Source: a bacterium
GTDB lineage: Bacteria > UBP15 > UBA6099 > DSWB01
Reading direction: 5' to 3'
DNA: 33,568 nucleotides
NCBI GenBank assembly: GCA_020061125.1
Contig: JAGUYV010000452.1
Span: forward strand, 1 to 33,568
The translations under genes were made by a program, and so were the position numbers. The notes under the pieces are model-generated. The model was given only the letters and a program-made list of their open reading frames with translations, was not told the DNA's origin and searched no databases. This document shows positions 14,793 to 19,795 of the stretch, piece by piece; positions within the stretch are counted from its first letter, which is position 1, and each line of letters opens with the position of its first letter.

Positions 14793-14823
14793 AACCGCCC
14801 CTGCCGTTGAGGCGGGGGCGGCT
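14793..14823 (-). terminator. Intrinsic terminator between the 14858..16042 gene and uvrA
   Basis: Hairpin ACCGCCCCTGCC / GGCGGGGGCGGCT with A/T-rich flanks. Confidence 0.65.
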
Positions 14824-14857: not shown

Positions 14858-16042
14858 TTATTTGATGGTGACTTCGGTGTTGGAGAACACGAGCTGCTGG
14901 TAGTGCGAGCAGTTGAGCGGAATGGGCATGAAGGAATCAATGGAAGCGTTGGCTGCGGTGAGAACGATGATGCGGACCATGTTGCTGGGGTTTGCGTTAG
15001 AACACTCTGTGCATTTCACCGAATCTTTATTCGTTCGGCACTCGACGCATGCATCACTACTGCCCTCAATAGCGCTGCGCTTGATGCTGCCGATGAAGGT
15101 GTTGCCGTCCTGTTTGCCCGTGGGCTTGGCGGCGAACAGCAGGCCGTCCATGATGTTGCCGCTCATGAGTTTGCCGATGTCGAGGACCAGCATGCCGGTC
15201 TTCATGGCTTCGTCCACATCCGCCTGGCTGATGCCTTCGGGAAGGCTGCCGACCTGTCCGAGCAGGCCCTTAATCAGTTCCTGGCCTTCGGGTTCGCGGG
15301 CCAGCGGGAGGTTGACCCACAGCTTGCCCACCATGAGGCCTTCGCTCTGCTCGATGTCGGGGTTGGTCATTTTCACGCCGTAGAAGTGAATGTACGGGGG
15401 ATTCAGAGTCCCGCCGTTGAACTTGCCCTGCACCTTGTAGCCCACATACACGCGCTCGTCATCGAACGCGGCCATGGTGTCGAGAATGTCCATGTCATCG
15501 GGAACGATGTCCACGGAGTTGTCCATATCCGCGGTTCCGGGAATCATGGCGTCCACGGCGGCGGCGGCGTCCGCAACTTTGAACGCCTGTGTGGTGGTGT
15601 TGCCGAAGGTGTCGGCCGCGGAAACGGCCACGGTGACTTTGTCGCCGCTCTTGGCGGGGATTTTGCCCGTGCACTTGAGGCCTTCACAGGTGAGGTCCAC
15701 GGACTTCTTGCCCTTGAGGTCGCCATTGACGGCGTACCAGGCTTTGGCGGCGGCGATCTTGACTTCTTCTTCCTCATCCTCGGCGCCCACGATTTCGAAC
15801 TCGGCCGAGACGGCGCCCGCGGCGTCAACGCTCACATTCACAATCTTGGGATAGGTTGTGTGCATGATGTTGCCGAAAGCGTCTTCTTCTTCCTCTTCAT
15901 CCCAATCGTCCCAGTCGTCCTCGGCGGCGATCACGATGCTGTCGTCCTGCGCGGCTGCGGCTTTGACTGCGGGAAGCAGGGTGGCGCTTACCGCGAAGAA
16001 AAATGCCAGCAGCATCAGAAGGTAATTGCGGGAAAGCTTCAT
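14858..16042 (-). CDS. Secreted protein of unknown function: acidic N-terminal tract, Fn3/Ig-like module, CxxC-x8-CxxC motif
   Basis: Start at ATG 16042: MKLSRNYLLMLLAFFFAVSATLLPAVKAAAAQDD (signal peptide), then DDWDDWDEEEEEDAF; CVECRTNKDSVKCTEC near the C-terminus. Confidence 0.8.
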   Translation of the reverse strand: MKLSRNYLLMLLAFFFAVSATLLPAVKAAAAQDDSIVIAAEDDWDDWDEEEEEDAFGNIMHTTYPKIVNVSVDAAGAVSAEFEIVGAEDEEEEVKIAAAKAWYAVNGDLKGKKSVDLTCEGLKCTGKIPAKSGDKVTVAVSAADTFGNTTTQAFKVADAAAAVDAMIPGTADMDNSVDIVPDDMDILDTMAAFDDERVYVGYKVQGKFNGGTLNPPYIHFYGVKMTNPDIEQSEGLMVGKLWVNLPLAREPEGQELIKGLLGQVGSLPEGISQADVDEAMKTGMLVLDIGKLMSGNIMDGLLFAAKPTGKQDGNTFIGSIKRSAIEGSSDACVECRTNKDSVKCTECSNANPSNMVRIIVLTAANASIDSFMPIPLNCSHYQQLVFSNTEVTIK

Positions 16043-16109
16043 TCTGTGCGTGCTCCTTTCGGGTTTGGGGTTTTTCGGTCCATTTATCCTTACAGGGCTG
16101 ATGTGATCC

Positions 16110-16182
16110 CCGATTGAAAATGAATCCGGTCTTTCCCGTAAACGGGATCTGTTCCTTATCTCAATCGGCTTGTGACAAGCCG
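16110..16182 (-). promoter_or_regulatory. Structured 5' leader with mutually exclusive hairpins
   Basis: CCGATTGA (16110-16117) pairs with TCAATCGG (16161-16168) around TCCCGT-AA-ACGGGA (16134-16147); alternative CGGCTTG-TGA-CAAGCCG (16166-16182) overlaps one arm. Confidence 0.4.
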
Positions 16183-16440
16183 CACAATGCAATGACCACG
16201 GCAATTATATTATGTTCCCCTGCATTCGTAAAGAGGAAATCATAGTTTGTGGTTCGGCATTGCCGTGTATGTTAAGACCCTCCTTTCGCATGGCCGCTTA
16301 CCGCGGTTTTCCGGCTCTCGGAACTGCACCGTTGAGCCGTTGTACTGCATAATGCGGCGGCGGGCGCGCAACTTACATGCGCCGCCTCGGTTGTGCGGTA
16401 TTTTTCCAAAATTCCATGGCCGGCTTGTGCGGCTCACGGC

Positions 16441-17454
16441 TCACAATGTGCGTTTGAACCACTTGAGGGCGTCCACCAGAACGCGGTCAAAGGGCAGAAT
16501 GTGCCCGGAGTCGTACCAGATCACAGCCTTTTTCTCCGTGGGGGTGATGGCGTGCAGCTTGTTCATGGCGGGCACGGTCATGGTGGTGTCTTCCTTGCCG
16601 TTCATGAACATGACCGGGCGGTCCGTGATGCGCTTGGCGAACACGGCCGGATCCACGAACTGGAACGCCTCGATAAGCTGTTCGGGCGTGACGCCGTGTT
16701 CGTCCATGTATTTCTGGATGTCGGCCACATCGCCGTACTCGGAATGCTTGAAGATGATGGAGAAATCCGCGGCGCCGTCGGCGATGAGAAGCGTCTTGAT
16801 GCGCGGATCCAGGGCGCATGCTGCCGTGCCTGTGACCGCGCCCATGCTGATGCCCATGTAACCGATGCGCGAGGGGTCAATGCCCTTCCACTGTTCAAGG
16901 GCGTCAAACCCGCGGCGGATATCCTGAATCTGCATCATCATGTGCCGGGCGCTCGTGACGGGATCAGGCATGAGGATGTCCATGCCCTCCTGCTTGCGAT
17001 CCCCGCGAAAGATCCCGTCAATGGCCATGAGCGCAACGCCGTGGCCGGGCCAGGCGCTGAACAGTTCGGCCAGGCTCTTGTCCGACACATGAAAGTGCAT
17101 CAGAAACACGGCCGGATACGCACCCGGAGCGGCCGAGCGCTCCGCTTTCATCGGCGCTATGCGGTCTTTGGGCATATACAGAACCGCGGGCACGCGCCGC
17201 CCGTCGAGGCTGTCGTATTTGAAGAAAATTTTGGTGAACGCGCCCATGTCCTTTTCTTCAGTGATTTCAATGTTGAGAGGCTGCGATTTATCATATTCAT
17301 AGGCTGCGCTGACCTTGTTCCAATCAACATGATCGAACGCAGTGACCGTGTCCACGGCGTCGCCGGGCTGTTCCTGAACGGCCAGCGCGGGCATGGCGAA
17401 CGCGACTATCAGCGCCAACGCGGTCACTATTCTCTTCAGCTTTTCAACATGCAT
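16441..17454 (-). CDS. Secreted alpha/beta hydrolase (dienelactone hydrolase/acetyl xylan esterase-like)
   Basis: Signal peptide; RIGYMGISMGAVTG (GxSxG nucleophile), NGKEDTTM acid region and YDSGHILP His. Confidence 0.85.
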   Translation of the reverse strand: MHVEKLKRIVTALALIVAFAMPALAVQEQPGDAVDTVTAFDHVDWNKVSAAYEYDKSQPLNIEITEEKDMGAFTKIFFKYDSLDGRRVPAVLYMPKDRIAPMKAERSAAPGAYPAVFLMHFHVSDKSLAELFSAWPGHGVALMAIDGIFRGDRKQEGMDILMPDPVTSARHMMMQIQDIRRGFDALEQWKGIDPSRIGYMGISMGAVTGTAACALDPRIKTLLIADGAADFSIIFKHSEYGDVADIQKYMDEHGVTPEQLIEAFQFVDPAVFAKRITDRPVMFMNGKEDTTMTVPAMNKLHAITPTEKKAVIWYDSGHILPFDRVLVDALKWFKRTL

Positions 17455-17500
17455 GTTGCTTCCTCCATGAAGTGTGTGTTGCTATTCTCGCGACAACGGC

Positions 17501-19633
17501 TCACAGCATGTCCATGAGTTCCATAAGCTGCTTCTGGATGAACGGCCCCTGGTTGGGGCCGAACAGGGCGAAGGTGGACTCGTACACGCGCGCCTGGTAC
17601 GCTTCGGGGGTCACAATGTAGCCGATGCCGTCGTTGGTGAGGCCCAGAAGGAACAGGTTGCCGATGCCCTTGTCCCTGGCCAGCTTCTTGACCGGGTCCG
17701 CGAGTTCCACGAACATCTCGCCGGGAATGGTGAGCATGGCTGTGTCTCCGAAGCGCAGACCAGCCATGGTCACGCGGATGTCGTAATCGGGCTGCAGAAT
17801 GATTTCGCGCGACAGGATCGTGACGGGCAGTTTGTCCTGGGTCTTGATTTTTTTCGCCACGCTCACAGCGATGGCGCCCAGGCCGCGGCCGGTCTTCTCG
17901 GCCCGCTCGAACCCGCCTCCGCAATCGCCGGGACAGGAGGGACTCTGGTTGCCCTGCGTGCCGTTGTTGAACATGGCCACGGCGCCGGGGAACGCATCCG
18001 TGATGGCCGCACGGGCCGGGCCTACGAAATCGGACGAGAATTCCATAACGCTGTCGCCCAGCACCGTGGGATGGGTTCCAAAATTGAACAGTACGGCCAG
18101 GGGCTTTCCGTCCGCCTTGTCCACGCGCATCACGCGCAGATCCGGATCAACGGGGCCTCCCTTGTTCACGCGGTTGCTGGAATACCCGGCGGCGTCTCCG
18201 GTTCCGAATCCGAGGCGCGCGGGCTGAAGCGCGGCATCCGCCTGCCTGACCACGGCGACGAATTTTTCAAGTGTTTCCGCATACAACCCCGGACGCACAT
18301 TGCCACCCAGCAGCGCCAGTTCCGGGAACATGCCGCCGGAGCTGCAATGCGCGTGTGATCCTGAAGCGATGACGAACTCGCGCGGGATGCCAAGCTCGGC
18401 CTCCACGCGCGCGGCGATGTCCTTGTACATGGACCGGCGCATGAGCAGGAAGTCGGAAGTGAGAAACACCATTTTGCGGTCTCCGGCCTGAAGCACCAGG
18501 GCCTGGGCCATGAGCGGATCGTGCACGCCGGTGGAGGGTTTTCCCTGGCGGCCGCCGTAGCCCGCAAGCGGCGTCCCAACGGGCGGGGTGATGTCAATTT
18601 CCGCCGCGCCCGCCTTGAGCGCCAAGGCCTCGGTCTTGCCGCGCGGAGCAACCGTATACGAATGCGTCCGCAGATAGGCGGTGACGAACGGCGAGGCTTC
18701 TTGCGGATACATGGCTTCAAACGAAGTGGCCGCCATGGTCAGAAGCCCGAACTCGATCTTGCCGGATGGGATGTCGCCAAGCGCCGCGCGGTTGAACCGG
18801 AAGTTCAACGAATCCGGCCCTTTCTTGAATTTCACATCCGCGCCCTCGATGCCCTTTTTCGTCTGCATGACTTCCGCGATGCGGAACAGGCCGTACTCGC
18901 CGAAGCCCATCATCTGCCCGAGCATGGGCGCATACGCCAGCATGTCCATGCTCATGAAATCGCCGATGCCCGTTGTCTTGTCCAGGTTCAGAACAGGAAA
19001 TAGATACATGTAAGCGCCCTGCCCCACCATGTTGCCTTTTCCGGGCTTGCCCTGGACTCTGGCCTGCACATAGAAAAACTGATCATCATGACCCACGCCC
19101 AACTCCAGAACATCCACATCCGGATGAAGCGCTTCATCAGGCGCGTCTTCGTCAGTGACGGTGATCAGATTGCGAGGCTGCTCGGGGAATCCCGAGACCA
19201 TGCCGGGCATTTCCGAACTCACGCTCCCGGCCCTATCGTAAGCGCTGACATAATAGAGTACCGTGACGCCTTTGTCCGCGGCGGGCAGCGTGGCGAGGTA
19301 AAAATCCGGGTCGCGGTCGTCGCGCAGCATTTCCAGAGTGGTCCACGAGGCCGCGTTGTCCGTGGAATAGCTGACCGTAACTTTTTTCACGGGCATGCCC
19401 GCAGCCTGTGTGTTGGCGCGCACCAGCGCGGTTACAAGAACTTCCTGCCCCTGCTGCGGCTTCTCGGGAACCTGGCGCACGGACACGATTTCGGGAGTGC
19501 CGGTGTAAAGGAAATTCGCGTAAGGCCCCTGCCGGCCTTCTTCGAACACCGTAACCGGCGGCGCGGCATCAGCAACGCAAGCGAAAAAAGCGGCAAACAC
19601 CGCCACGGAAAGGATTTTCATCGCAGTCTTCAT
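17501..19633 (-). CDS. Secreted protein: N-terminal Fn3-like/beta module plus neutral/alkaline non-lysosomal ceramidase N-terminal-type domain
   Basis: Signal peptide; C-terminal half LKAGAAEIDITPPVGTPLAGYGGR, IASGSHAHCSSGG, FNFGTHPTVLG, NNGTQGNQSP, GLTNDGIGYIVTPEAY match neutral ceramidase-type catalytic motifs. Confidence 0.85.
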   Translation of the reverse strand: MKTAMKILSVAVFAAFFACVADAAPPVTVFEEGRQGPYANFLYTGTPEIVSVRQVPEKPQQGQEVLVTALVRANTQAAGMPVKKVTVSYSTDNAASWTTLEMLRDDRDPDFYLATLPAADKGVTVLYYVSAYDRAGSVSSEMPGMVSGFPEQPRNLITVTDEDAPDEALHPDVDVLELGVGHDDQFFYVQARVQGKPGKGNMVGQGAYMYLFPVLNLDKTTGIGDFMSMDMLAYAPMLGQMMGFGEYGLFRIAEVMQTKKGIEGADVKFKKGPDSLNFRFNRAALGDIPSGKIEFGLLTMAATSFEAMYPQEASPFVTAYLRTHSYTVAPRGKTEALALKAGAAEIDITPPVGTPLAGYGGRQGKPSTGVHDPLMAQALVLQAGDRKMVFLTSDFLLMRRSMYKDIAARVEAELGIPREFVIASGSHAHCSSGGMFPELALLGGNVRPGLYAETLEKFVAVVRQADAALQPARLGFGTGDAAGYSSNRVNKGGPVDPDLRVMRVDKADGKPLAVLFNFGTHPTVLGDSVMEFSSDFVGPARAAITDAFPGAVAMFNNGTQGNQSPSCPGDCGGGFERAEKTGRGLGAIAVSVAKKIKTQDKLPVTILSREIILQPDYDIRVTMAGLRFGDTAMLTIPGEMFVELADPVKKLARDKGIGNLFLLGLTNDGIGYIVTPEAYQARVYESTFALFGPNQGPFIQKQLMELMDML

Positions 19634-19795
19634 TTATTATCTCCCATTGTCATAATTTACAATCCGCATCTATGCAAACAGTTTGATTCTAATTTATCGG
19701 CATTGCAGGATCAAGGAACACGCGAGCAGCCGCAGGACATATCCTGACAATTCCGCCTTGCGCAGCCTCCCGGCCATCTGCTGACACCCTTTGAT

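Follow-up and report, generated by a model that had tools for sequence, protein, structure and literature searches.

Neutral and alkaline ceramidases, represented by the family PF04734 and the structures 2zws and 4wgk, are the described enzymes closest to the catalytic part of one protein considered here. In human ASAH2, an Ig-like domain lies beside the catalytic domain, toward the C-terminus, and the active-site serine was reported to hold Arg257 in position (PMC6952831). Further points of comparison are the Ig-like domain of the Porphyromonas peptidylarginine deiminase, the family CBM_56 (PF22184), and the CBM9 (PF06452) and DOMON families. For the lineage concerned, UBP15, the literature gives the name Candidatus Lagoxiota and six genomes, whose sources are a black smoker, digester sludge and wastewater (PMC11382960).

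The window, i.e., the whole stretch of 33,568 nucleotides that was analysed, corresponds to contig C391 of a genome of 4.1 Mb and 79% completeness, which belongs to an uncultured bacterium. Three minus-strand genes, here termed P3, P2 and P1, are located between a UvrA-like and a HisH-like gene (names of the flanking genes assigned by eye). An earlier note on this DNA had described them as three exported-protein genes on one strand with a secreted alpha/beta hydrolase in the middle, and both statements hold: the open reading frames were confirmed, an N-terminal export signal was predicted on each product, and P2 matched alpha/beta hydrolase families in Pfam and NCBIfam searches. The locus comprises the following features:

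19686 to 19714, minus strand: promoter-like site 5' of P3 (TTGATC-17-TAGAAT; consensus match only)
17501 to 19633, minus strand: P3, 710 residues, with signal peptide, two-domain module and PF04734 (ceramidase-type) catalytic domain; orthologs order-wide
18656 to 19498, minus strand: module in P3 (residues 46-326), an Ig/Fn3-like domain followed by a second domain
18656 to 19165, minus strand: second, unnamed module domain in P3, delimited by domain-model searches
17504 to 18625, minus strand: PF04734 catalytic domain of P3 (Pfam E=1.9e-22; PDB profiles)
16441 to 17454, minus strand: P2, 337 residues, secreted alpha/beta hydrolase (AXE1/S9-like) with GxSxG present; member of a multi-copy hydrolase family
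16204 to 16232, minus strand: promoter-like site 5' of P1 (TTTACG-17-TATAAT; consensus match only)
14858 to 16042, minus strand: P1, 394 residues, secreted stand-alone module protein
15881 to 15922, minus strand: acidic DDWDDWDEEEEED linker, preceding the EEDAFGNIM motif, which is conserved in the P1 subfamily
14879 to 15853, minus strand: module in P1 (residues 64-388), from the family profile
14999 to 15067, minus strand: 23-residue insertion with CVEC...CTEC in P1, absent from 8/8 aligned homologs
14795 to 14815, minus strand: predicted strong intrinsic terminator-like hairpin 3' of P1

The stop of P3 and the start of P2 are only about 46-47 nt apart, and these two genes may form a two-gene transcript. 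Between P2 and P1 the spacing amounts to 398 nt and includes the promoter-like site that precedes P1, and the hairpin region past P1 (14770-14860) folds far better than its shuffles (z=-4.8). When searched as a whole protein, P1 had no match in Pfam or NCBIfam. Its Cys-rich insertion was considered as a repeat or mobile element, which was rejected as no other copy occurs in the genome.

The N-terminal part of P3 had been suggested by eye to align in order with P1. This was confirmed by direct BLASTP (22% identity over 178 residues, E=7e-5) and, at far greater length, by a profile-profile comparison of nine P1-type proteins with six P3 orthologs, the rows being disjoint, which gave a probability of 99.7% and E=1.6e-25 over 285 aligned columns and covered residues 51-394 of P1 and 33-329 of P3. 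Thus, the similarity observation was right and extends further than first seen; the idea of one shared module domain needs correction, since the shared unit spans two domains, an Ig/Fn3-like domain of about 110 residues and a second domain of about 170-180 residues. As the alignment runs through both domains, the similarity exceeds that of a generic Fn3 fold. Searched with a model restricted to the second domain, the window genome yielded P1 (E=9.5e-49) and P3 (E=4.8e-47), a result of consistency only, because both are rows of that model. P1 and P3 are distant paralogs of about 20% identity, connected by about 50 intermediate paralogs. Judged by sequence, P1 and the N-terminal 300 or so residues of P3 are homologous throughout, with the two domains in the same order. 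The proposal of an undescribed module, which P3 combines with an amidohydrolase-type (PF04734) domain and which P1 carries on its own, is supported.

By sequence profile (E=7e-6), the first domain resembles the Ig domain of peptidylarginine deiminase, which the AlphaFold models of P1 and P3 both match by fold; CBM_56 was matched by the first domain in 4 members, with a best value of 9.3e-7. Unlike in these described families, the Ig-like domain of the module precedes an unnamed second domain, for which searches of Pfam, NCBIfam and PDB sequences yielded no usable match. Both structure models, based on shallow alignments, show a similar strand order with a confident first domain; the second domain was modelled at low confidence (pLDDT mostly 35-75), mainly strands plus a helical insertion being predicted. 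The fold search with both models gave Ig/Fn3-type matches for the first domain and none that were informative for the second. The second domain is probably a CBM9/DOMON-like beta-sandwich, the assignment being suggestive. It features motifs similar to those of CBM9, namely D-x-LYV and a late strand like 'vEvaIPl', and its scores against CBM9 profiles were above those of shuffled controls (26.2 vs at most 13.7; 30.2 vs 16.1; 23.5 vs 19.9). It differs from these families in having no Pfam match at a useful score and no identifiable ligand residues. The profile probability of the CBM9/DOMON link is weak (7-42%), and the longest alignment to CBM9 depends on the protein L161, which was found by the domain's own model, 30-33 columns being left when L161 is omitted.

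Sequence searches in six genomes of the same order revealed about 50 module paralogs, 37 of which make up the profile A1. Among the matches listed for this profile were 70 module places distributed over 7/7 genomes of the order, with 8-12 per genome. The matches listed for A1 in 91 genomes from other orders concerned the Ig-like part only. The model of the second domain alone gave five matches in 379 outside genomes, three of these proteins carrying both domains, and a complete or nearly complete copy occurs in 8/20 genomes of the phylum of genome G345. Since complete modules are found outside UBP15, the module is expanded in the order of the window but not exclusive to this lineage; outside the order, complete modules appear to be rare. 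The PKD-rich or secretion-tail proteins L159, L160 and L163 from outside UBP15 contain the complete two-domain module. The complete module is present roughly once per genome there, in exported proteins whose other parts are PKD/Ig domains or a secretion-tail match and not PF04734. By eye, the C-terminal stretch of the L159 protein (448-2478), whose module is joined to PKD/Ig domains, is dockerin-like.

Maximum-likelihood analysis placed P1 and P3 in separate subfamilies, each with a support of 100/100. Both subfamilies span all three families of the order and therefore predate its divergence; some further subfamilies are just as widely distributed. All members with a complete N-terminus start with a hydrophobic segment there, and lipobox-like N-termini were found in a few (L105 and L115, as well as L087 by eye). 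A distant member of 1504 residues in genome G001 (L100:1179-5690) shows a partial module match and a C-terminal type I dockerin, and is encoded directly upstream of a module gene.

The catalytic domain of P3 matches PF04734 with 80 bits, above the curated cut-off of 32.1, and its residues ~337-708 match PDB ceramidase profiles with E values of 1e-21 to 6e-23. The positions H427, H521, E639 and Y672, which match those of the neutral-ceramidase zinc site in 2zws and 4wgk, are invariant in six orthologs (P3 and five complete ones). This much of the designation 'ceramidase-type' stands. The step to a true neutral ceramidase is not supported: P3 reaches 41.8 bits against a cut-off of 1200 for the NCBIfam ceramidase equivalog, only the N-terminal ceramidase model being matched, and the position of the active-site serine, S564 in P3, is occupied by glycine in the other 5/5 complete orthologs. 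Because of this replacement, 'ceramidase' is not established for P3, and 'zinc amidohydrolase-type' is the justified name. The Ser/Gly position adjoins an invariant CPGDC motif (residues 561-571; 17921-17953).

Orthologs of P3 with 45-50% identity are present in 6/6 relatives, the copy of G006 being split over two contigs, and every complete ortholog features the module at its N-terminus, opposite to the more C-terminal Ig-like domain of ASAH2. On the sequences compared, the PF04734 fusion is thus an order-wide ortholog. A scan of 84,980 species, based on two short patterns and accordingly of limited sensitivity, revealed the fusion in these six only, in records named 'UBP15_UBA6099', 'ADurb.Bin236' and MAGs, plus one planctomycete protein matching the catalytic part. 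Within the collection of papers searched, none dealt with such module-PF04734 fusions.

The reading favored here, to which we give an even chance, is that P1 and the N-terminus of P3 represent one lineage-expanded, secreted two-domain family whose module would act as a non-catalytic binding or attachment unit and would tether the enzyme in P3, the proximity of the two genes in the window genome being incidental. This role is inferred from domain make-up, export and diversity. The stand-alone modules, soluble or in some paralogs lipid-anchored, would be periplasmic or surface-located proteins with differing ligands, probably glycans or polymers of the envelope; in P3, the module would hold the zinc amidohydrolase-type enzyme near the module's ligand. 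A more far-reaching version, in which the second domain forms a new carbohydrate- or envelope-binding family that diversified within one candidate phylum, so that each genome encodes some ten old and specialised receptors for export and one of these directs an amidohydrolase with a substrate other than ceramide, is conceivable but rather unlikely.

A structural or envelope-assembly role would be as compatible with the sequences. The module might hence be a building block of the envelope (surface layer, matrix or outer-membrane-associated) and P3 an envelope-tethered enzyme, a reading that the many divergent paralogs, the few lipobox-like variants and the dockerin at the end of the 1504-residue member would suit. 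It is considered less likely than the favored reading, as P1 and P3 contain no S-layer, autotransporter or sorting domain.

Considerably less probable is a dedicated extracellular degradation system of module protein, esterase and amidohydrolase acting on one substrate, a variant of the small three-gene extracellular system proposed in the earlier note. The same strand, the export of all three products and the gap of just 47 nt between P3 and P2 speak for it, as does contig C335 of genome G005 (L125:979-7993), where a span of 7 kb includes, on mixed strands, genes for a P2-type hydrolase, a module protein and a non-fused PF04734 protein. Nevertheless, conservation of the neighbourhood, on which the proposal depended, was not found in the six relatives checked: genes of all three types are present but far apart or on different contigs in each of them. 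G004 has 107 kb between its orthologs of P1 and P3 and the P2 ortholog on another contig, and in G002 each of the three is on a different contig. The P3 orthologs of the relatives have other neighbours, which in one genus include another module gene at about 1.5 kb. Proximity counts do not favor the system either, since P2-type hydrolases were found within 10 kb of module genes in 3/31 cases vs about 1.6 expected, which is near chance. For non-fused PF04734 genes the value was 3/13 besides the window, with about 0.65 expected, but the module/PF04734 neighbour pairs examined in G002 and G005 were not conserved in sister genomes. Because the orthologs are scattered and P1 possesses its own promoter-like site and terminator-like hairpin, the three-gene system is unsupported; ortholog positions and proximity counts together led to its rejection. 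Several P2-like alpha/beta hydrolases are encoded per genome in the window genome and its relatives, including proteins of 777 and 855 residues with two matching stretches.

Similarly improbable is a propeptide-like or regulatory module that served the folding or activity of P3 and was later duplicated as free proteins. Its N-terminal location and its conservation in every complete P3 ortholog would be expected from such a part, but stand-alone members by far outnumber the fusion and fall into several old subfamilies, and the same genomes also encode PF04734 proteins that lack the module. A merely generic Fn3/Ig resemblance by convergence, for which the widespread first-domain matches could be quoted, is barely credible, as the alignment passes through both domains, the second domain by itself suffices to recover the family and the intermediates join P1 with P3.

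The module is real, undescribed and lineage-expanded, with one conserved enzyme fusion, and the combination of an Ig-like and a probable binding domain is an ordinary architecture in a little-known phylum. For annotation, this means that P3 should not be called a ceramidase and that the three-gene cluster should not be read as a system. A recurrent, order-wide secreted family that is not covered by Pfam or NCBIfam is now delimited for a candidate phylum that very few genomes represent, and the module boundaries and profiles given here allow the family to be annotated and tested.
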